The notes under the pieces are model-generated. The model was not told the DNA's origin. It saw nothing but the letters and a program-made list of their open reading frames with translations, and did no database searches. From Sandarakinorhabdus limnophila DSM 17366 (GTDB taxonomy: Bacteria; Pseudomonadota; Alphaproteobacteria; Sphingomonadales; Sphingomonadaceae), in the NCBI RefSeq assembly GCF_000420765.1, contig NZ_ATVO01000004.1:214001-278000 (forward strand): 64,000 bases of DNA. The letters are read 5' to 3'. This document shows, one piece after another, positions 27,660-36,461 of the stretch; within the stretch, counting starts at the first letter, position 1, and each line of letters starts with the position of its first letter. A program made the position numbers and the translations under genes.

Positions 27660-28675
27660 GACGGCCCCATGCCAAATCCGGCCGGCACTGGCCAGCCTGG
27701 CGCCGTGACGGCCAAGGCCTGGAAGATGGCGCCCATCTGCTGCGGCGCGGTGAGCCGCAACAGTGCGGCGGTGATGCTGCCGGCTTCGTGCGGTGGCTTG
27801 CCCATCTTCAGCGCCTCGGCTCGCGCCGCGATGCCGAGCTCACCGAGCAGCGCGCCCTGCGCCACCGGGCCATGAATGGCCAGGCCCCGGTTGTGGGCAA
27901 TGGCGGCAAGCGCGCTGAAATCGACATGCGCGGTCAGATCATGCGCGCCGGGATCATAAAAGGGGCTGACCTTTTCGCCGCGATGCACGGCCTGCAACGT
28001 ATCGAGCGGCACCTTCTCGATTACCTGACCGCCATAGCCATAATCGATGATCAGCATGGCACCGCCCTGGGCCGCGATGCGGCCCGACAGATGCCCCATG
28101 ATCGCCTGCGCTGCCTCGCTCCATTCGGCGTCTGCGCCGTCGGCGGGCAGCCATTTCGGCGTGAACAATACGTCTTCGAAGCCCACATGCAGTTCCTTGC
28201 CCGCCCGGCGCTGGCGGATCGGCAGGGCGTCGAAAAATTCGTTGGCGACAATGATGAGCGGGCGATCGTCGGGCAGTTGATCCACCCGGTCGTGCCACTG
28301 CGCCGCCCAGCCCGCCAGCCGGGCCCGCTGGATGGAACGCAGCACCAGGCTGGTTTCAACCATGTGCAGCCCTGCGCTGCCAATGAAGCCTGGCAGCCGA
28401 CCAAGCAGGCGCAGCGCATCAGCCATCAGGCTGCCATGGCCGGGGCCGAGTTCGGCAATGTGCAGCGGTGGTTTTTCGGCCCGCAGCCACAGATCGCCGA
28501 TCCAGCCGCCGATCATTTCGCCGAACATCTGGCTGATTTCCGGCGCGGTGGTGAAATCGCGGCCCAGTGGATCTTCGCCGCCATAATAGGCCGGGTTGCA
28601 GGCCGCCATCCACACATCAAGGCGCAATGGCCCTTCGGCGGCGATGCGGGCGCGCAGGGTTTCGGCGAGGCTCAC
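27656..28675 (-). CDS. NDUFAF7/MidA-like SAM-dependent methyltransferase
   Basis: 339 residues of the DUF185 family. The SAM motif is AELGPGHGSLMADALR; GRDFTTAPEISQMFGEMIGG and IVANEFFDALPIRQ are family hallmarks. The mitochondrial member dimethylates an arginine of complex I subunit NDUFS2, and alphaproteobacterial homologues may act on NuoD. Translation starts at GTG 28675 inside the GTGA overlap with the lgt stop. Confidence 0.92.
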   Translation of the reverse strand: MSLAETLRARIAAEGPLRLDVWMAACNPAYYGGEDPLGRDFTTAPEISQMFGEMIGGWIGDLWLRAEKPPLHIAELGPGHGSLMADALRLLGRLPGFIGSAGLHMVETSLVLRSIQRARLAGWAAQWHDRVDQLPDDRPLIIVANEFFDALPIRQRRAGKELHVGFEDVLFTPKWLPADGADAEWSEAAQAIMGHLSGRIAAQGGAMLIIDYGYGGQVIEKVPLDTLQAVHRGEKVSPFYDPGAHDLTAHVDFSALAAIAHNRGLAIHGPVAQGALLGELGIAARAEALKMGKPPHEAGSITAALLRLTAPQQMGAIFQALAVTAPGWPVPAGFGMGPS

Positions 28676-29529
28676 GCCGCGACGGGTTTGCGGATCAGCG
28701 CCAGCACGAGCAGCAGCAGTCCGATGGCGATGATCGGCAGGGTCAGCGTCTGGCCCATGGTCAGGCCTGAATCGAGGATACCCAGCTGCCGATCCGGTTC
28801 ACGGTAGTTTTCGATGATATAGCGGGACAGGCCATAGCCGATGCCGAACACGCCCGACAGCACGCCGGGCCGCAGCCGCGCCGGCGTGAACCAGAACAGC
28901 AGGGTCAGCACGACGAACAGCACGCCGCCTTCCAGCCCGGCTTCGTAAAGCTGGCTGGGGTGGCGCGGTTCCGGGCCGGCATCGGGGAAGATGATGCCCC
29001 AGTCCGTGCCGGTGGGGCGGCCCCACAGCTCGCCGTTGACGAAATTGGCCAAGCGCCCCAGCCCGAGACCCAGCGGCGTGACGGTGGCAACCAGATCGAG
29101 CAGCCGCAAGCCGCTGTATTTGGAGAACCAGCCGTGCAGGAAGCAGGCGGCGACCACCCCGAAACAGCCGCCGTGGAAGCTCATGCCGCCATCCCACAGC
29201 CGCAGGATTTCCATCGGATCGGCCATGTATTTTTCAGGGTTATAGAACAGCACATAGCCGAGCCGGCCGCCGCCGATGACGCCCAGCGTGGCCCAGGTGA
29301 TATAATCGTCGAGCTGTTTCTGGCTGAGCGGCGCGCCGGGCTGGCGGATCATCCGTGTCATCAGGAACCAAGCGCCGGCGATGCCGATGATATAGGCCAG
29401 GCTGTACCAGCGCAGGGCAAATGGTCCCCATTCGGAGCCGGCCAGCGAGAATGCCGGGATGGTGAAGGCCTCGGGCCGCACCGGCAACGTGGTGAAATCC
29501 ACTGCGGCGGCGAAAAATTCGGTGAGCAT
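28672..29529 (-). CDS. lgt: Phosphatidylglycerol-prolipoprotein diacylglyceryl transferase
   Basis: A 285-residue inner-membrane enzyme that adds diacylglycerol to the lipobox cysteine of prolipoproteins. It has seven spans; the Lgt signature GRLANFVNGELWGRPT and the essential HGG motif (SFHGGCFGV) are present. It is the first gene of lgt-NDUFAF7-GNAT-pgeF. The later enzyme of the same pathway, lnt, is at 56697. A small hairpin GCCAGC-TTT-GCTGGC (29548-29562) lies in the 87-bp gap to the divergent acyl-CoA dehydrogenase. Confidence 0.97.
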   Translation of the reverse strand: MLTEFFAAAVDFTTLPVRPEAFTIPAFSLAGSEWGPFALRWYSLAYIIGIAGAWFLMTRMIRQPGAPLSQKQLDDYITWATLGVIGGGRLGYVLFYNPEKYMADPMEILRLWDGGMSFHGGCFGVVAACFLHGWFSKYSGLRLLDLVATVTPLGLGLGRLANFVNGELWGRPTGTDWGIIFPDAGPEPRHPSQLYEAGLEGGVLFVVLTLLFWFTPARLRPGVLSGVFGIGYGLSRYIIENYREPDRQLGILDSGLTMGQTLTLPIIAIGLLLLVLALIRKPVAA

Positions 29530-29616: not shown

Positions 29617-30804
29617 ATGGCTGACCTTGAAACATTCCGCGCCGAAACGCGCGCCTGGCTGGAGGCGAACTGCCCGCCCGAAATGCGTGAGCCGATCCGC
29701 GATGATGACGATGTGTGCTGGGGCGGCCGCGGCGTAAAATTCAAGAACGAAGCGCAGAAGCTGTGGCTTGAGCGCATGGGCGCCAAGGGCTGGACGGTGC
29801 CGGAATGGCCGAGCGCCTATGGCGGCGGCGGGCTTTCCCGCGAGGAAGCCAAGGTGCTTTCCGAGGAAATGCGCCGCATCAAGGCACGCTCGGCCTTGTC
29901 CAGCTTCGGCATCTGGATGCTCGGGCCGGCGCTGCTGAAATATGGCAATGAAGCCCAGAAGCTGGAGCATCTGCCCAAGATCGCCCGCGGCGAGATCCGC
30001 TGGTGCCAGGGCTATTCGGAACCGGGCGCCGGGTCTGACCTTGCGTCATTGCGTACTTCTGCCGAAGACAAGGGGGACCATTATCTGGTCAACGGATCAA
30101 AGGTGTGGACTAGCTATGCCGACAAGGCGGACTGGATCTTCTGCCTTGTCCGCACCGATCCGGCTGCACCCAAGCATCTGGGCATCAGCTTCCTGCTGTT
30201 CGACATGGCCTCCGAAGGCGTGTCGACCAGCCCGATCAAGCTGATCTCCGGCTCCTCGCCCTTCTGCCAGACGTTTTTTGACAATGTGAAGGTGCCCAAG
30301 GAAAACCTGATGGGCGTGCCCGGCAAGGGCTGGGACATCGCCAAATATCTGCTCACTCACGAGCGTGACATGATCGGCGGCTCGGACTCGACCGGCGGAG
30401 GCCAGCGTGACAGCGTGTCCAACATCGCCAAGCGCCTCATTGGCCTCGATGCCGCCATCCTCGCCGATACCGCGCTGCGCACAGACATCGCCCGTCACGA
30501 GATCAACGCGCTGGCCTTTGGCCTGACGATGGAGCGGGTGCTGGCCGAGACCAAGAGCGGCCAGGGCACCGGCGCCTTGAGTTCGATGCTGAAATATTAC
30601 GGCACCGAACTGAACAAGGAACGCATGGAGCTGTTGATGTCGATTCGGGGCAGCGACGGCCTGGTGTGGGAAGGCGAAGAAAAGGGCGAAGGCGATCTTG
30701 CCCGATCCTGGTTGCGCAGCCGCGCCAACTCCATCGAAGGCGGCACGTCTGAAGTGCAGCTCAACATCATCGCCAAGCGCGTGCTCGACCTGCCGGGAGC
30801 CTGA
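29617..30804 (+). CDS. Acyl-CoA dehydrogenase (subunit with catalytic-Glu motif)
   Basis: A 395-residue FAD enzyme that desaturates acyl-CoA. FAD-binding blocks are CQGYSEPGAGSDLASL and VNGSKVWTSYADKADW. The C-terminal NSIEGGTSEVQLNIIAKRVL has the GTSE segment in which the catalytic base of this family sits. GGGAGAG precedes ATG 29617; the longer upstream frame overlaps divergent lgt and is discarded. A second, different acyl-CoA dehydrogenase begins 3 bp after its stop, an arrangement typical of heteromeric alpha2beta2 enzymes in steroid or bulky-chain catabolism. Confidence 0.93.
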   Translation: MADLETFRAETRAWLEANCPPEMREPIRDDDDVCWGGRGVKFKNEAQKLWLERMGAKGWTVPEWPSAYGGGGLSREEAKVLSEEMRRIKARSALSSFGIWMLGPALLKYGNEAQKLEHLPKIARGEIRWCQGYSEPGAGSDLASLRTSAEDKGDHYLVNGSKVWTSYADKADWIFCLVRTDPAAPKHLGISFLLFDMASEGVSTSPIKLISGSSPFCQTFFDNVKVPKENLMGVPGKGWDIAKYLLTHERDMIGGSDSTGGGQRDSVSNIAKRLIGLDAAILADTALRTDIARHEINALAFGLTMERVLAETKSGQGTGALSSMLKYYGTELNKERMELLMSIRGSDGLVWEGEEKGEGDLARSWLRSRANSIEGGTSEVQLNIIAKRVLDLPGA

Positions 30805-30807
30805 CCA

Positions 30808-31944
30808 ATGCCGCTCATCCTCACTGACGATCAGCAGATGATCCGCGACAGCGCGGAGGGTTTCTTCAAGGACGAAGCCCCCGTGTCGCAGCACCGCAGC
30901 CTGCGCGACAGCAAGGACGCCGCCGGCTTCTCCCGCGATGTGTGGGCCAAGATGGCCGAGATGGGCTTTGCCGGCGTGCTGGTGCCGGAAGCGCATGGCG
31001 GGGCGGACATGGGCCATGTCGCGGCCGGCATCATCCTGGAGGCGATGGGCAAGAATCTCAGCGCCGCGCCGATGCTCTCCACTGCCGTGCTGGGTGCCAC
31101 GGCGCTGAAACAGGGCACGGCCGAGCAGCAGGCCAAATATCTGCCGCTGATCGCACAAGGCGCGCATCTGCTGGCGCTGGCCGCGGATGAAGCCGCCCGC
31201 CACAAGCCCAATCATGTGGCGACCACCGCCGCGCCGTCGGGCAACGGCTTCAAGTTGAATGGCGTGAAGGGCTTCGTGCTAGATGGCGCTGCGGCTGATA
31301 CGCTGATCGTGGCGGCGCGCACCGGCGGCGATGTGGGCGACACGGCCGGCATCACGCTGTTCCTGGTCAATCCCAAGTCCGATGGCGTGAGCGTTGACCG
31401 CCGTTCGATGGTCGACAGCCGGGGCGCCGCGCGCGTCACGCTGGCCGATGTGCAGGTCGACGGTGCCGACGTTCTGGGCGGCGTGGGCGAAGGCTTTGCC
31501 ATCCTCGAAAAGATGCTCGATGCCGGCCGCGCTTGCCTCGCCGCCGAAATGCTCGGCGTGTCGGGCACCAGCTTCACCATGACCGTGGATTATATCAAGC
31601 AGCGCGAGCAGTTCGGGCAGAAGATCGGCAGTTTCCAGGCCCTGCAGCACCGCGCCGCGCACCTGTTCTGCGAAGTGGAACTGGCCCGTTCGGCCACGCT
31701 GAAGGCGTTGCAGGCGCTGGACGAATGCAGCGACCGTACGCCGATGTATGTGAGCCTCGCCAAGGCCAAGGCCGGCGAAGTCGCGATCCTGGCCAGCAAC
31801 GAAGGCGTGCAGATGCACGGCGGCATCGGCATGACCGATGAGTACGACATCGGCTTTTTCATGAAGCGCGCCCGCGCCGCCCAGGAGACATTCGGAGATG
31901 CCGCCTTCCACAGCGACCGGATTGCGCGGACGCTGGGTTATTGA
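30808..31944 (+). CDS. Acyl-CoA dehydrogenase-like partner subunit
   Basis: 378 residues, homologous to acyl-CoA dehydrogenases (TDDQQMIRDSAEGFFKDEAP at the N-terminus; MHGGIGMTDEYDIGFF near the end). The usual EGT/EGGTSE stretch is missing: the chain reads RARAAQETFGDAAFHSDRIA instead, as in the partner subunits of mycobacterial FadE26/27-type heterotetramers. It probably does not work alone but pairs with the upstream subunit. It starts 3 bp after that gene; the ligase follows after 102 bp. Confidence 0.9.
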   Translation: MPLILTDDQQMIRDSAEGFFKDEAPVSQHRSLRDSKDAAGFSRDVWAKMAEMGFAGVLVPEAHGGADMGHVAAGIILEAMGKNLSAAPMLSTAVLGATALKQGTAEQQAKYLPLIAQGAHLLALAADEAARHKPNHVATTAAPSGNGFKLNGVKGFVLDGAAADTLIVAARTGGDVGDTAGITLFLVNPKSDGVSVDRRSMVDSRGAARVTLADVQVDGADVLGGVGEGFAILEKMLDAGRACLAAEMLGVSGTSFTMTVDYIKQREQFGQKIGSFQALQHRAAHLFCEVELARSATLKALQALDECSDRTPMYVSLAKAKAGEVAILASNEGVQMHGGIGMTDEYDIGFFMKRARAAQETFGDAAFHSDRIARTLGY

Positions 31945-31957
31945 TGCCGCTGCCGGT

Positions 31958-31973
31958 GCTTGCACTTGCAAGC
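31958..31973. promoter_or_regulatory. Palindrome upstream of the CoA ligase
   Basis: GCTTGCACTTGCAAGC has 7-bp arms around two bases in the 102-bp gap before the ligase gene. A 2-nt loop is poor for an RNA hairpin, so a protein-binding site is more likely. The regulator is unknown and none lies beside it. Confidence 0.4.
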
Positions 31974-32046
31974 AACGCCCGGCATGACATGAAGAGACTG
32001 TAATGAGCTGCAGCCAGCGGCCGCATCAGCCTTGGGAGACTGACCT

Positions 32047-33777
32047 GTGACCAAATCCGCGCTTGATGCCGCTCTCGATCAGGTCGTTGCCGGCATCACG
32101 GCTCTCGGCGGTGCGCTGGGCGTGGGCACGGCCAACGTCCACGGCGTCTCGTTGCCGATATTCTCCGCTGCGCCGCCCACCATGCGCGAATATATGGCGA
32201 TGTTCTTCACCGTGAACGGCCCCAAGGAGTTCCTGGTGTTCGGCGAGGAGCGCCTGACCTTTGCCGAGGTCTATGCCAGATCGCTGAAATTCGCCGCCAT
32301 GCTGCAGCACCGCCAAGGCATCGCCAAGGGTGACCGCGTTGGCGTCGCCATGCGCAACTATCCGGATTGGATCATCGCCTATGTCGCCTGTGCCCATATG
32401 GGCGCGGTGTGCATCCCGATGAACGCGTGGTGGACGGCCGAGGAAATGGCCTATGGCATCGAGGACAGCGGCGCCCGGCTGGTGATCGCCGACGAGGAAC
32501 GCGCCCGCCGCCTCGCCACCCTATCGTGCACGGCCAAGGTCATCACTGTGCGCACTTCGGGCGAAGTGGCCAGCCAGCTGGGTTTTGCACGCTCCGAGGA
32601 TGAACTGGCCGCCAGCCCCGACACCATGTGGTATCTTCCCGAACTGCTGCCTGAAGATGATTGCACGATCATGTATACTTCGGGCTCCACCGGCGCGCCC
32701 AAGGGAGCGGTGTCCACCCACCGCGCGCAGGTCTCGGCATCGATGAACTATCTGGTCACCGGTCTGGCGCTGCTGGAATTGTCGGCCCAGTCCGGCGCGG
32801 CACCGGCGGATCAGCAGGTGATGCTGCTCAATGTGCCGCTGTTCCACATCACCGGCCTGGTGCCGGTGCTGCTGGTCAGCTTTGCCATCGGCCGCAAGAT
32901 GATCATCATGCACAAATGGGATGCCGGCGAAGCGCTTCGCCTGATCGAGAAGGAGCGCTGCACCTATTTCGTCGGCGTGCCGACCATGAGCCTCGAACTC
33001 ATGCAGCATCCGGACCGCCACAAATATGATCTGTCATCGCTGGTCGATATCGCGTCCGGCGGCGCGCCGCGTCCGCCCGAACATGTCGAGCGGCTGGCCA
33101 AGGAGTTCGAAGGCAAGCACCCGGTGCAGGGCTATGGCCTGACCGAAACCAATGGCGTCGGCGCCGGCAATATCCGCGACAATTACCGCAACAAGCCGGC
33201 CAGCACCGGCCGCGCCGCGCCACCGTTGATGGAAATCCGCATCGCCGATGGTGATGGCCCGGTGGGCGAGGCGCTGCCGACCGGAGCGGTGGGTGAAGTC
33301 TGCCTGCGTTCGGTGTGCAATTGCCGGGGTTACTGGAACAAGCCCGACGCCACCGCGGCGGCATTCGTTGGCAATGGCTGGTTCCGCAGCGGCGATCTCG
33401 GCTATCTGGATGACGAAGGTTATCTGTTCATCGTCGATCGCAAGAAGGACATCATCATCCGCGGCGGCGAGAATATCAGCTGCCAGGAAGTGGAATCCGC
33501 CATCTATGCGCACCCGGCGGTGGCCGAAGTGAGCGTGTTTGGCCTGCCCGATGAACGGCTGGGCGAGATTGTTGGCGCCGTTGTCTATGCCAAGCCGGGC
33601 GAGCATCTCGATCCCGATGCGCTGATCGATTTCCTGAAATCAGGCATGGCCGCCTACAAGATCCCGGCCAAGCTGTGGATGAGCGCCGATCAGCTGCCCA
33701 AGCTGGGATCGGCCAAGATCGACAAGGTGACGCTGAGGAAGCAATATCGCGCAGTGTGGGCTGCAAACGCAGCCTGA
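32047..33777 (+). CDS. AMP-dependent acyl-CoA synthetase
   Basis: A 576-residue ANL ligase. Motifs: IMYTSGSTGAPKGA, GYGLTETNG, RSGDLGYLDDEGYLFIVDRK with DIIIRGGENI, and a C-terminal lysine in GSAKIDKVTLRK. It probably makes the acyl-CoA that the two upstream dehydrogenase subunits oxidise. It starts at GTG 32047 with GGGAG about 10 bp upstream. The HD-domain gene follows after 15 bp, so these four plus-strand genes look like one operon. Confidence 0.93.
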   Translation: MTKSALDAALDQVVAGITALGGALGVGTANVHGVSLPIFSAAPPTMREYMAMFFTVNGPKEFLVFGEERLTFAEVYARSLKFAAMLQHRQGIAKGDRVGVAMRNYPDWIIAYVACAHMGAVCIPMNAWWTAEEMAYGIEDSGARLVIADEERARRLATLSCTAKVITVRTSGEVASQLGFARSEDELAASPDTMWYLPELLPEDDCTIMYTSGSTGAPKGAVSTHRAQVSASMNYLVTGLALLELSAQSGAAPADQQVMLLNVPLFHITGLVPVLLVSFAIGRKMIIMHKWDAGEALRLIEKERCTYFVGVPTMSLELMQHPDRHKYDLSSLVDIASGGAPRPPEHVERLAKEFEGKHPVQGYGLTETNGVGAGNIRDNYRNKPASTGRAAPPLMEIRIADGDGPVGEALPTGAVGEVCLRSVCNCRGYWNKPDATAAAFVGNGWFRSGDLGYLDDEGYLFIVDRKKDIIIRGGENISCQEVESAIYAHPAVAEVSVFGLPDERLGEIVGAVVYAKPGEHLDPDALIDFLKSGMAAYKIPAKLWMSADQLPKLGSAKIDKVTLRKQYRAVWAANAA

Positions 33778-33792
33778 GTCGGGAGACGACCA

Positions 33793-34338
33793 ATGTTCAC
33801 CACAATGCTGGAAGGCACCAAGGACGACTGGATGCATATTGCGTCCGAGCACATGAAGCATCAGCAATCCGCCGCCGCCGAACAGATCATCGACTCCCTG
33901 AAGCGCCTCGAAGCCATCGAGGTCGGCTTCGGCGCCAATCAATTGGTCCATAGCCTGATGACCGCCACCCTGGCCCGCCGCGACGGTGCCAACGACGAGG
34001 AAGTCGTTGCCGCGCTTTGCCACGACATCGGCAAATTGTTCAGCATCCCCAACCACGGCGCCATCGCCGGTGAAATGCTGAAGCCCTATGTGGCCGACGA
34101 CATCTATCACGCCATCGTTCATCATCAGGATTTCCAGGGCCGCTATTATTACGAGCACCTGGGCAAGGACCCGAACGCCCGCGAGAAATATCGCGGCGAA
34201 CCCTGGTTCGACATGGCTGAAAAGATCGTCGACCGCTGGGACGCACCGGCGTTTGATCCGGACTATGACGTGGACAGCCTGGAAAGTTTTGAACCCGAAA
34301 TCCGCCGGGTGTTCGCCGCGCCGAAGCGGGGAATCTAG
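33793..34338 (+). CDS. HD-domain protein, PhnZ/MIOX-like (putative diiron oxygenase)
   Basis: A 181-residue HD-superfamily protein whose metal-ligand pattern fits the mixed-valent diiron oxygenases rather than plain phosphohydrolases: His53 (NQLVHSLMTATLARRDGA), His77-Asp78 with Lys81 (CHDIGK), His88 (NHGAIAGEML), His110 (IVHHQDFQGRYYY) and Asp150 (IVDRWDAPAF). PhnZ and myo-inositol oxygenase use H, HD, H, H, D in this order, and the His53-His77 spacing equals that recalled for PhnZ. The PhnZ-specific Tyr/Glu pair before the first His appears to be replaced (Glu43, Phe46), so the substrate should differ. It is last in the acyl-CoA operon. GGGAG lies before ATG 33793. A hydrolase role is the alternative. 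Confidence 0.75.
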   Translation: MFTTMLEGTKDDWMHIASEHMKHQQSAAAEQIIDSLKRLEAIEVGFGANQLVHSLMTATLARRDGANDEEVVAALCHDIGKLFSIPNHGAIAGEMLKPYVADDIYHAIVHHQDFQGRYYYEHLGKDPNAREKYRGEPWFDMAEKIVDRWDAPAFDPDYDVDSLESFEPEIRRVFAAPKRGI

Positions 34339-36461
34339 GCCGCCGACCCGGCGTCTTCGCCATCGTCATCCTCATCGGCCGTGCCGATCAGCGCACGCAC
34401 CTGCACTTCATCCAGTTCGCCGGCGATTTTCTGGAACTGCGGATCGCGCCAGGCTGCTTGCAGCGTTTCGGGCCCCTGGCCTTCGGCATCGATCAAACCG
34501 GGATCGGCCGTGATCGCAGCGGCGGCGCGCGGCCAGCGCAGTTCCAGGATGGTCCACAGCACCATCGCATCGAAATCGACCATGCGCCCTTCCAGCAGGC
34601 TGCGCGCCTGAGTCATGCCGATGGCATTGACCAGCCGCTTCATGCCGCGCGGATTGGGCTCGATATAGGAAACCCAGCGCAGCAGGCGATGCTCCACCAC
34701 CTTGTCCGCCGCCGCGGTGGACAGGCGCGCCACGGCCTGGGCACGCAGGGCCGGCCGCTGCTCCTCCGGTGCGGCGGCGATGGCGGCCTGGATCTCCTCG
34801 TGGCGCACCGCCGTTTCAGGCAGACGCGCCTCTTCCGGCAGATCGGTTTCGGCGGCCCCCAGCAGCCGGCCAAGATAGGCGCGCTTCACCGCCACCGGCA
34901 GCGCCGGGATGGTGACAGAGACCTGGAACATCTTGTCCAGAAACAGATCGCCCACCGGCCGCGCCTTGTCGCCGCCGTCTTCAAACAGGCTGAAGCGCTG
35001 GGCAAAGCTGGCGGTGATCCAGTACCGATCGGCCACCGCCAGGAACACCACGGGCTGGCCGCGAAAGAGGGTCTGGATGCCTTCAAGCAGGTCGGTTACG
35101 GTGCCGGCATCGCAGCGATCCAAATCGTCGAGCACGATCAGCACCGGGCACGGGCATTCCGTCACCAGCATGTCGAACAGGGTGATGAACGGCCGGAAAC
35201 TGTCGGTGCGCAGCGCATCAAAGCTTTCGGCGGCGCGCCGGCCACCCAGCATCGGCGCGCGCAGGAAGCTGATCGCCACACCGGTGGCGGTGATGATGCC
35301 GCCCAATGTGCCCTGCCACTTTTCGATGACGCCGGTGATGGTACTGCCGGCAAAGGCCGCCGCTGCCAGTGCCAACAGGCCGCCGGCCACCATGTAGACA
35401 TTCTCCACCGATGGCGACACCCAGGCCCAGCGCAGATCAAGCCAGCGCCGCCGCCACCACGGCAACCGCCGATCAAGCGCGCGCTTGAACTCGGTCAGCA
35501 TGTTCCACCACGGCGGCTTCACCCTGGCATTGCGCCAGGCGTTGAACTCCACCACCAGCCACGGCGGGTCCTGCGCCTTCAGCGTGTCTTCTAAAAAGCG
35601 CACCAGGCTGGATTTGCCCGATCCCCACGGCCCGTGCAGATGCACCATCACCGCCTTGGGCTGTGCACTTGCCGCTTCGTCCCGCTGCAATCGCACCAAC
35701 CGCGCCGCCAACGCATCGGCCAGCGGCTTACGGCCGAGTTCATCCACCGTGGCCGGGCTGTCGGAAAGCAGCGGTGTGCGTTCGGCCGGGGAAGGCGGTG
35801 GCGTGGTAGGCCCAGCCAACAGCGCCTGCCACGCTGCCATGTCCTCACTTTTCAGTGGCGCATAACCGGTACGCGCCACCACCAGGGCGCGCAGTTCGGC
35901 GAGCAGTTCGGCGCTGATGCGGCCACCTCCGCTGAGCAGTGGCCATTCTTCCGGCGACTGTTCGGCCAGCGCAAACAGCAGGTGGCGCGCGCCCACCGGT
36001 TCAGGTTTGCCGTTCATGGTGGCATCGCGCACTTCAACGGCACGCTTCAGCCCAAAATACGCCAACAATATGCTCAGCTGCGGACGAGCGTCGGTTGGAT
36101 CGGCTGTCGGCCGCAGGGCAAATGCAAGCCCTTGTTGCTTTGCCCACTGCTGCAGCCATATTGAGGCCGTTGGCAGTCCGCCATGCTGCTCTGCTGCCAA
36201 CATGGCCGCTACTACGGCTTCGAGATCAATAACTCGGCCTTCCGAGCCGGCTGTTGCAAACCGCGCAGAACCCGCAGCCAATGCAGCCATATTGTCAGTC
36301 AAATCGCCCAAATGGCGGGCAAACAGAGCGACAGCATCCGCTTCAACAGACGAAGGGTCTGCCGATCTCGGCCGGGCAGCCTTGCTGGCCTGTTTGCGTG
36401 GGCCGCGCACGGCTTTGGTGCCGTGCGACGATTCGGGTGGCTCAGACAGTGGTTCGCTCAT
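34335..36461 (-). CDS. KAP family P-loop NTPase with membrane insert
   Basis: 708 residues. The KAP core has Walker A LHGPWGSGKSSLV (275-287), two membrane helices inserted between the Walker motifs (about 352-375 and 385-400) and Walker B VLIVLDDLDRCD (440-451), followed by the usual PNPRGMKRLVNA sensor-like region. The N-terminal 230 residues are helical; 155-200 (GARHLLFALAEQ, ISAELLAELRALVV) resembles a degenerate Clp-N repeat. KAP ATPases are membrane-bound, patchily spread STAND-like relatives, several linked to phage defence. It is a single gene, convergent with the HD gene (4-bp overlap). Its actual function is unknown. Confidence 0.88.
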   Translation of the reverse strand: MSEPLSEPPESSHGTKAVRGPRKQASKAARPRSADPSSVEADAVALFARHLGDLTDNMAALAAGSARFATAGSEGRVIDLEAVVAAMLAAEQHGGLPTASIWLQQWAKQQGLAFALRPTADPTDARPQLSILLAYFGLKRAVEVRDATMNGKPEPVGARHLLFALAEQSPEEWPLLSGGGRISAELLAELRALVVARTGYAPLKSEDMAAWQALLAGPTTPPPSPAERTPLLSDSPATVDELGRKPLADALAARLVRLQRDEAASAQPKAVMVHLHGPWGSGKSSLVRFLEDTLKAQDPPWLVVEFNAWRNARVKPPWWNMLTEFKRALDRRLPWWRRRWLDLRWAWVSPSVENVYMVAGGLLALAAAAFAGSTITGVIEKWQGTLGGIITATGVAISFLRAPMLGGRRAAESFDALRTDSFRPFITLFDMLVTECPCPVLIVLDDLDRCDAGTVTDLLEGIQTLFRGQPVVFLAVADRYWITASFAQRFSLFEDGGDKARPVGDLFLDKMFQVSVTIPALPVAVKRAYLGRLLGAAETDLPEEARLPETAVRHEEIQAAIAAAPEEQRPALRAQAVARLSTAAADKVVEHRLLRWVSYIEPNPRGMKRLVNAIGMTQARSLLEGRMVDFDAMVLWTILELRWPRAAAAITADPGLIDAEGQGPETLQAAWRDPQFQKIAGELDEVQVRALIGTADEDDDGEDAGSAA

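Follow-up and report, generated by a model that had tools for sequence, protein, structure and literature searches.

What does a small HD-domain protein do directly behind two acyl-CoA dehydrogenases and an acyl-CoA ligase, and do the four genes make up one pathway? The question is raised by a locus of Sandarakinorhabdus limnophila DSM 17366 (Sphingomonadaceae), which lies in the 64,000-nucleotide window that we analysed (the whole stretch G000:C4:214001-278000, within contig 4; the genome measures 2.6 Mb; genomes are designated G, contigs C and loci L). The initial annotation had seen here one likely catabolic pathway ending in an oxygenase of the PhnZ/MIOX type. Its layout of four plus-strand genes between 29617 and 34338, spaced by 3, 102 and 15 bp, is borne out by the open reading frames (ACAD1, ACAD2, LIG and HD-A; Table 1), and Pfam places an acyl-CoA dehydrogenase domain on ACAD1 and ACAD2, an AMP-binding domain on LIG and an HD domain on HD-A (E 2.4e-6).

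By its predicted fold and ligands, HD-A belongs to the oxygenase branch of the HD superfamily, yet to no named family, because fold and ligands match while the curated family cut-offs are not reached. The structural model, built from an alignment of 51 of the 54 references (A1; L081, L083 and L084 omitted), had a mean pLDDT of 96.1 and a pTM of 0.90. A fold search of the PDB returned 175 matches at E<=10, and all 10 matches at E<=0.001 were chains of PhnZ or TmpB (E 3.6e-6 to 2.9e-5, TMq 0.63-0.71, identity 19-23%). Mouse MIOX, to which the initial annotation had also likened the protein, ranked 20th (E 0.43, prob 0.97, TMq 0.56), leaving PhnZ and TmpB as the significant matches. Among the best 50 of the 175 matches, HD hydrolases reached a TMq of about 0.2-0.4, the best of them having an E of 0.12 and a TMq of 0.33. 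Indeed, a 51-row sequence profile also found PhnZ first (6e-12) and TmpB next (3e-9), and 51/51 of its members matched TIGR03276 at E<=0.01.

The six putative metal ligands H53, H77, D78, H88, H111 and D150 are invariant in 109 of 109 aligned homologues, 33 of clade A and 76 of group B. Clade A is defined by at least 53% identity to the window HD gene and group B comprises the remaining 76 rows; exact duplicates had been dropped, as had homologues deviating by at least 60 aa from 190 aa. The ligand pattern proposed earlier is thus correct at H53, H77-D78, H88 and D150 and wrong at H110, which is ruled out as a ligand: position 110 is a histidine in only 17/33 clade-A and 29/76 group-B rows, and the invariant histidine is H111. 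The reported lack of the PhnZ-type Tyr/Glu substrate pair holds throughout, with YxxE in 0/109 homologues (0/76 in group B); the aligned place reads EVGF in 24/33 clade-A rows and FGGF or YGGF in 46/76 group-B rows. HDxG is followed by Lys in 33/33 clade-A rows and by Asp in 71/76 group-B rows (mostly HDIGD); where clade A has this lysine (K81), PhnZ and TmpB have His in profile alignments. MIOX presumably has a Lys after its HD pair (HDxxK), as clade A does; a search for MIOX sequences to check this, covering the genome of the window and 14 controls, found none. The order H...HD...H...H...D is the motif given for MIOX, PhnZ and TmpB in the accessible text of a 2020 review (PMC8177086). Read from sequence, the ligand set appears to be dinuclear, not the mononuclear, phosphatase-like site that the initial annotation had named as the contrary outcome, and its completeness, together with PhnZ and TmpB as the sole significant structural matches, points to an oxygenase-type site.

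HD-A has the same predicted fold as PhnZ ((R)-2-amino-1-hydroxyethylphosphonate oxygenase; 4mlm, 4mln, 4n6w and 4n71) over about 180 residues, the same ligand set and a similar size, but the two are 22-23% identical, and HD-A lacks YxxE, carries K81 in place of His after HDxG, has no adjacent hydroxylase and scores below the TIGR03276 cut-off. TmpB (6npa), the other significant solved match, also has the ligand set in common with HD-A, from which it differs at 19-20% identity, in its YxxE loop and in a model score of 23.6 bits against a cut-off of 300. The curated cut-offs and the missing YxxE loop rule out HD-A as an orthologue of either. MIOX (PF05153, 2huo) shares the ligand motif and, in the portions of the source available, likewise has no YxxE loop; in contrast to HD-A, 2huo has 258 residues, and the score of HD-A against PF05153 (15.4 bits, cut-off 25) excludes it as a member of that family, from which it is also set apart by the TMq and E value given above.

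Clade A (HDxxK) is, as judged from sequence, distinct from a wide proteobacterial group B. A tree, midpoint-rooted and with its bootstrap not settled, sets clade A apart by a branch supported at 100/100; it contains 29 A and 74 B rows, 103 in all, after removal from the 109 of those sharing at least 96% identity. Clade A and group B together had a match in 84/149 family genomes at E<=0.001 (the weakest doubtful) and in 59/398 phylum genomes at E<=1e-15. No metabolic operon was evident in the 31 group-B loci fetched from the family; a sensor-kinase gene, named by eye, was near the HD gene in 22 of them, in most together with a response-regulator gene. In five of the 76 group-B rows (G368, G478, G447, G092 and G512) the HD gene directly follows a 2-oxoglutarate hydroxylase, which in G368 and G478 is a PhyH hydroxylase. 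In G447 (L157:9759-11533) the hydroxylase scores 422.5 bits against a TmpA cut-off of 400, and 9 bp separate it from the group-B HD gene behind it, whose product stays below the TmpB cut-off (45.4 of 300 bits), lacks YxxE and is possibly a non-orthologous replacement of TmpB; the hydroxylases of G092 and G512 are 35-37% identical to this TmpA-like protein. A hydroxylase followed by an HD oxygenase is the layout of PhnY/PhnZ and TmpA/TmpB in the available portion of a 2023 review (PMC10574752). Although present in a minority of rows, this pairing is the strongest indirect sign that the wider family consists of oxygenases.

The hydroxylase-HD layout occurs in none of the clade-A rows; a PhyH match near the clade-A locus L020 was weak (24%), about 1.45 kb upstream and separated by another reading frame, and was not counted. 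Three further observations were made among group-B loci. The group-B HD genes at L148:9635-11208 and L155:9901-11636 lie 15 bp 3' of PhyH-family hydroxylases with no assigned substrate, candidate new hydroxylase/HD-oxygenase pairs. The pair in G447 is flanked by a GbdR-like regulator and a choline-type ATP-binding cassette (ABC) binding protein, neither of which reaches its model cut-off. At L136:7394-10312 a group-B HD gene adjoins a gene scoring slightly over the cut-off for carnitine 3-dehydrogenase (596 versus 592 bits) and an acyl-CoA dehydrogenase.

The HD gene and the ligase form the tighter unit, or core, of the cluster, and the dehydrogenases are its most often missing part. In 22 related loci, of which the nearest in named relatives belong to Sandarakinorhabdus and then Polymorphobacter, HD directly follows the ligase in 21, and in 17 the ligase is itself preceded by both dehydrogenases, frequencies that argue against a chance arrangement. 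The other five comprise two loci with the ligase only (L010, L018), one at a contig end (L011), one with an ACAD2-like frame (45%) that is then cut (L012) and one with HD but no ligase (L020). In nine loci, some being the same gene fetched twice, the stop codon of the ligase shares one base with the start codon of HD. We then counted neighbours across 377 family genomes, at HD E<=1e-55, ligase E<=1e-190 and ACAD1 E<=1e-180, thresholds that miss more diverged neighbours (ACAD2 was outside this search). HD-A was found in 42 genomes of 11 genera; the ligase was directly upstream in 28 genomes of 8 of these genera, and ACAD1 preceded it on the same contig in 23. The five ligase-HD genomes without ACAD1 beside them had it on another contig (G613, G022), had no ACAD1 match, with the ligase near the contig start (G542, G688), or had ligase and HD only (G040). 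The 22 loci overlap with these genomes, and the two sets of counts are not additive. HD-ligase adjacency is thus common in relatives rather than rare, and the one-pathway proposal keeps its ligase-HD link while being weakened by the unlinked genomes discussed below. The same adjacency counts rule out an obligate four-gene operon and, together with basal clade-A loci that have no dehydrogenases, indicate that the combination is a derived, clade-limited cluster.

The claim of a heteromeric dehydrogenase is supported in so far as ACAD1 and ACAD2 resemble alpha and beta subunits in their PDB matches. The top three PDB matches of ACAD1 are alpha chains (Tcur3483 in 6wy9 and 6wy8, and chain A of 4x28); for ACAD2 three other acyl-CoA dehydrogenase entries come first and the partner chain Tcur3481 fourth. 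E249 of ACAD1 aligns with the HER-motif Glu of the solved alpha chains and is present in 36/36 relatives, as is E374. At residues 238-239 of ACAD2, aligned by eye with E249, there is no Glu in 36/36 relatives; E360 of ACAD2 (QETFG) lies near the C-terminal loop, where enzymes of the medium-chain acyl-CoA dehydrogenase (MCAD) type keep their Glu. As far as the accessible text of PMC11153573 goes, heteromeric dehydrogenases carry the catalytic Glu on the alpha subunit. The pair thus resembles FadE26-FadE27 (4x28), Tcur3483-Tcur3481 (6wy8/6wy9) and PimC-PimD in its two consecutive genes and in the position of the ACAD1 Glu, but ACAD2 scores higher against some homomeric structures, and the PimC and PimD models give 294 of 624 and 268 of 653 bits, far under cut-off. 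These data support, without proving, a predicted alpha2beta2 heterotetramer. The best models for LIG are generic (PRK06187, 424 of 476 bits), followed by CasG at 401.5 of 750 bits. A steroid or bile-acid pathway is only suggested, by the CasG score and the dehydrogenase relatives, and was not adopted; no search for ring-degradation genes was made.

We tentatively favour, at somewhat less than an even chance, the reading that HD-A represents a new clade of HD oxygenases and supplies the adjacent ligase with a carboxylic acid, whose CoA thioester is then desaturated by the dehydrogenases. With a predicted Fe(II)/Fe(III) pair and O2, HD-A would break a C-C (or C-heteroatom) bond adjacent to a hydroxyl, giving a carboxylic acid; LIG, probably on the same transcript, would convert the acid into its CoA thioester; and an ACAD1-ACAD2 alpha2beta2 enzyme would desaturate the thioester and pass it to beta-oxidation. 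The analysis establishes the order and adjacency of the genes, the conservation of the ligands, the predicted fold and the subunit types of the dehydrogenases; the identity of the metal, the oxygenase chemistry, the co-transcription and the order of steps we infer from known chemistry. The order fits, since the acid product would be the substrate of the ligase and the thioester that of the dehydrogenase. FadE26-FadE27, a solved alpha2beta2 enzyme and close relative, has the cholesterol side chain as its substrate, so the substrate here is perhaps bulky, branched or cyclic. Acids released by known HD oxygenases include glycine, glycine betaine and glucuronate in the available portions of two reviews (PMC10574752, PMC8177086). 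A more specific version we consider doubtful. In it, clade A would be a new functional class whose members use O2 to split a C-C bond of a hydroxylated bulky acid or diol and hand the carboxylate straight to the ligase and a steroid-type alpha2beta2 dehydrogenase.

A number of observations weigh against this proposal, concerning both the locus and, as set out in the paragraph after this one, the chemistry. HD-A has no adjacent ligase in 14/42 genomes (genera g74, g6 and g89), and no ACAD1 match at the above threshold was found there either; DNA was inspected for four of the 14 (G142, G074, G099 and G005; L055, L056, L058 and L059), none from g89. Conversely, ACAD1 and the ligase lie within 4 kb on one strand in 35 genomes, of which 12 are without HD-A; the six of these that were fetched (L120-L125) have ACAD2 present and lgt next door. 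The gene lgt also marks loci from which parts of the cluster are missing: in G021 (L168) and G057 (L170) it is followed by a ligase (51-52%), a molybdopterin-type gene, ferrochelatase (hemH) and a short-chain dehydrogenase/reductase (SDR), with no HD or dehydrogenase genes, and L123 and L124 have this order with the dehydrogenases and without HD (the molybdopterin frame of L170 was named by eye, protein models having been run on the L059 copies). ACAD1 relatives lie elsewhere in G021 and G057, in G057 beside genes that by eye resemble those of beta-oxidation (L165). In the five basal clade-A loci fetched, HD is upstream of the molybdopterin gene, directly in L057-L059 and with an Atg22-like transporter between in L055 and L056, where HD directly follows lgt; L057 reads lgt, ligase, HD, molybdopterin, hemH, SDR. 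These basal loci thus place HD by lgt, the ligase or the molybdopterin enzyme and have no dehydrogenases within the stretch. In the tree the solitary loci L093, L033/L034 and L036/L037 fall outside the clustered ones, with the reservations on rooting and bootstrap given above. HD-A, the ligase and the dehydrogenase pair are therefore a recent assembly, brought together at one locus, that of lgt; this history is the strongest result against the four genes as one inherited pathway, and for an HD-ligase core. It also suits an alternative in which HD-A is an HD oxygenase with a function of its own that merely resides at the lgt locus, where genes for ligase, dehydrogenases and molybdopterin enzyme are gained and lost, and is co-transcribed with the dehydrogenases without taking part in their pathway. 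We regard this alternative as nearly as likely as the pathway; it has against it the short-gap LIG-HD adjacency, kept across 54% to 99% ligase identity even where no dehydrogenases lie upstream (L010, L018, L057).

As to the chemistry, the motif alone is no proof of an oxygenase, because the hydrolase YqeK and an HD-GYP protein also hold dinuclear iron, according to the accessible text of PMC8177086. HD-A falls below every curated cut-off tried for such enzymes (TIGR03276, 31.4 of 214.6 bits; NF052439, 31.6 of 300; NF049941, 23.6 of 300), and the YxxE loop occurs in 0/33 clade-A rows. No 2-oxoglutarate hydroxylase is among the window neighbours of HD-A; its own genome gave 0 PhyH matches and one TauD, on contig C6, the window being on C4. 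Even in group B, 71/76 rows are without an adjacent hydroxylase, as searched with three query proteins and at least 1.18 kb of upstream DNA in all 76. HD-A might, like most known HD proteins, be a metal-dependent phosphohydrolase or other hydrolase, such as a house-cleaning nucleotidase, and the low model scores would fit, as would the labels of six of 14 plasmid records (three 'HD domain-containing protein' and one each 'phosphohydrolase', 'inositol oxygenase family protein' and 'hypothetical protein'). We consider this improbable in view of the PhnZ/TmpB chains at E 4e-6 to 3e-5, set against the much poorer best hydrolase match, and of the five hydroxylase-paired group-B rows. Less probable still is that HD-A cleaves a C-P bond, with the ligase and dehydrogenases merely using the carbon product of a phosphonate: although PhnZ and TmpB are its nearest solved relatives and a group-B gene has a TmpA-scoring neighbour, the YxxE substrate loop is missing from clade A, which has K81 where those enzymes have His, and no phosphonate gene was recognised by eye in the clade-A neighbourhoods inspected, where no model search for such genes was run. 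Genes of an inositol pathway were likewise not recognised by eye there; again no model search was made.

The coordinates of the four genes and their neighbours are collected in Table 1. Neighbouring genes were called with a rough open-reading-frame caller based on GC3 (G+C at third codon positions), and many names were assigned by eye. Scanning for promoters and terminators gave 3 promoter-like sites (1.1 expected from shuffles) and 2 terminator-like sites (4.0 expected), all intragenic and none in the gaps of the cluster. A convergent gene similar in size to the KAP-family NTPase also lies 3' of HD in L010. The lgt locus of the family has a recurrent order of its own, namely lgt, ligase, molybdopterin-type gene, ferrochelatase and an acetoacetyl-CoA-reductase-like SDR, into which modules are inserted or from which they are missing (L168, L170, L123, L124, L055-L059), and the ligase stands beside lgt also in relatives without HD or dehydrogenases.

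Table 1. Genes of the cluster and its immediate neighbours (window coordinates)
Feature	Position	Strand	Description
ACAD1 (395 aa)	29617..30804	+	Acyl-CoA dehydrogenase, alpha (catalytic) subunit type, PimC/Tcur3483/FadE26-like; candidate base E249
ACAD2 (378 aa)	30808..31944	+	Acyl-CoA dehydrogenase, beta subunit type, PimD/Tcur3481-like
LIG (576 aa, GTG start)	32047..33777	+	AMP-forming acyl-CoA ligase
HD-A (181 aa)	33793..34338	+	HD-domain protein, candidate diiron oxygenase; ligands H53 H77 D78 H88 H111 D150
lgt, prolipoprotein diacylglyceryl transferase	28672..29529	-	Divergent neighbour, start at 29529; anchors the locus in relatives; outside the pathway
KAP-family P-loop NTPase	34335-36461	-	Convergent; 3' end overlaps the HD-A stop by 4 bp

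In the accessible text of the 2020 review, the HD-domain oxygenases number three, MIOX, PhnZ and TmpB (PMC8177086), to which PhnZ variants and a fungal fusion, all with phosphonate substrates, are added in the available portion of the 2023 review (PMC10574752). An 'HDO family' (PMC13232832) was set aside, as the part of that paper at hand concerns heme-oxygenase-like proteins. Among the matches listed, no title or abstract opening described a ligase-linked HD oxygenase, and no assay of a clade-A or group-B protein was found; PhnZ, the HD domain and acyl-CoA dehydrogenase were never treated together in the texts searched, most subscription papers lying outside the search. The six-ligand HD set is spread far more widely than the three oxygenases of the 2020 review. 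For clade A, the ligase partner offers a concrete route to a substrate, leading from the acids that the ligase accepts back to the compound that the oxygenase would cleave. If the more specific version of the pathway is true, it would be an HD-oxygenase entry into beta-oxidation, of a kind undescribed for PhnZ, TmpB or MIOX in the literature searched.

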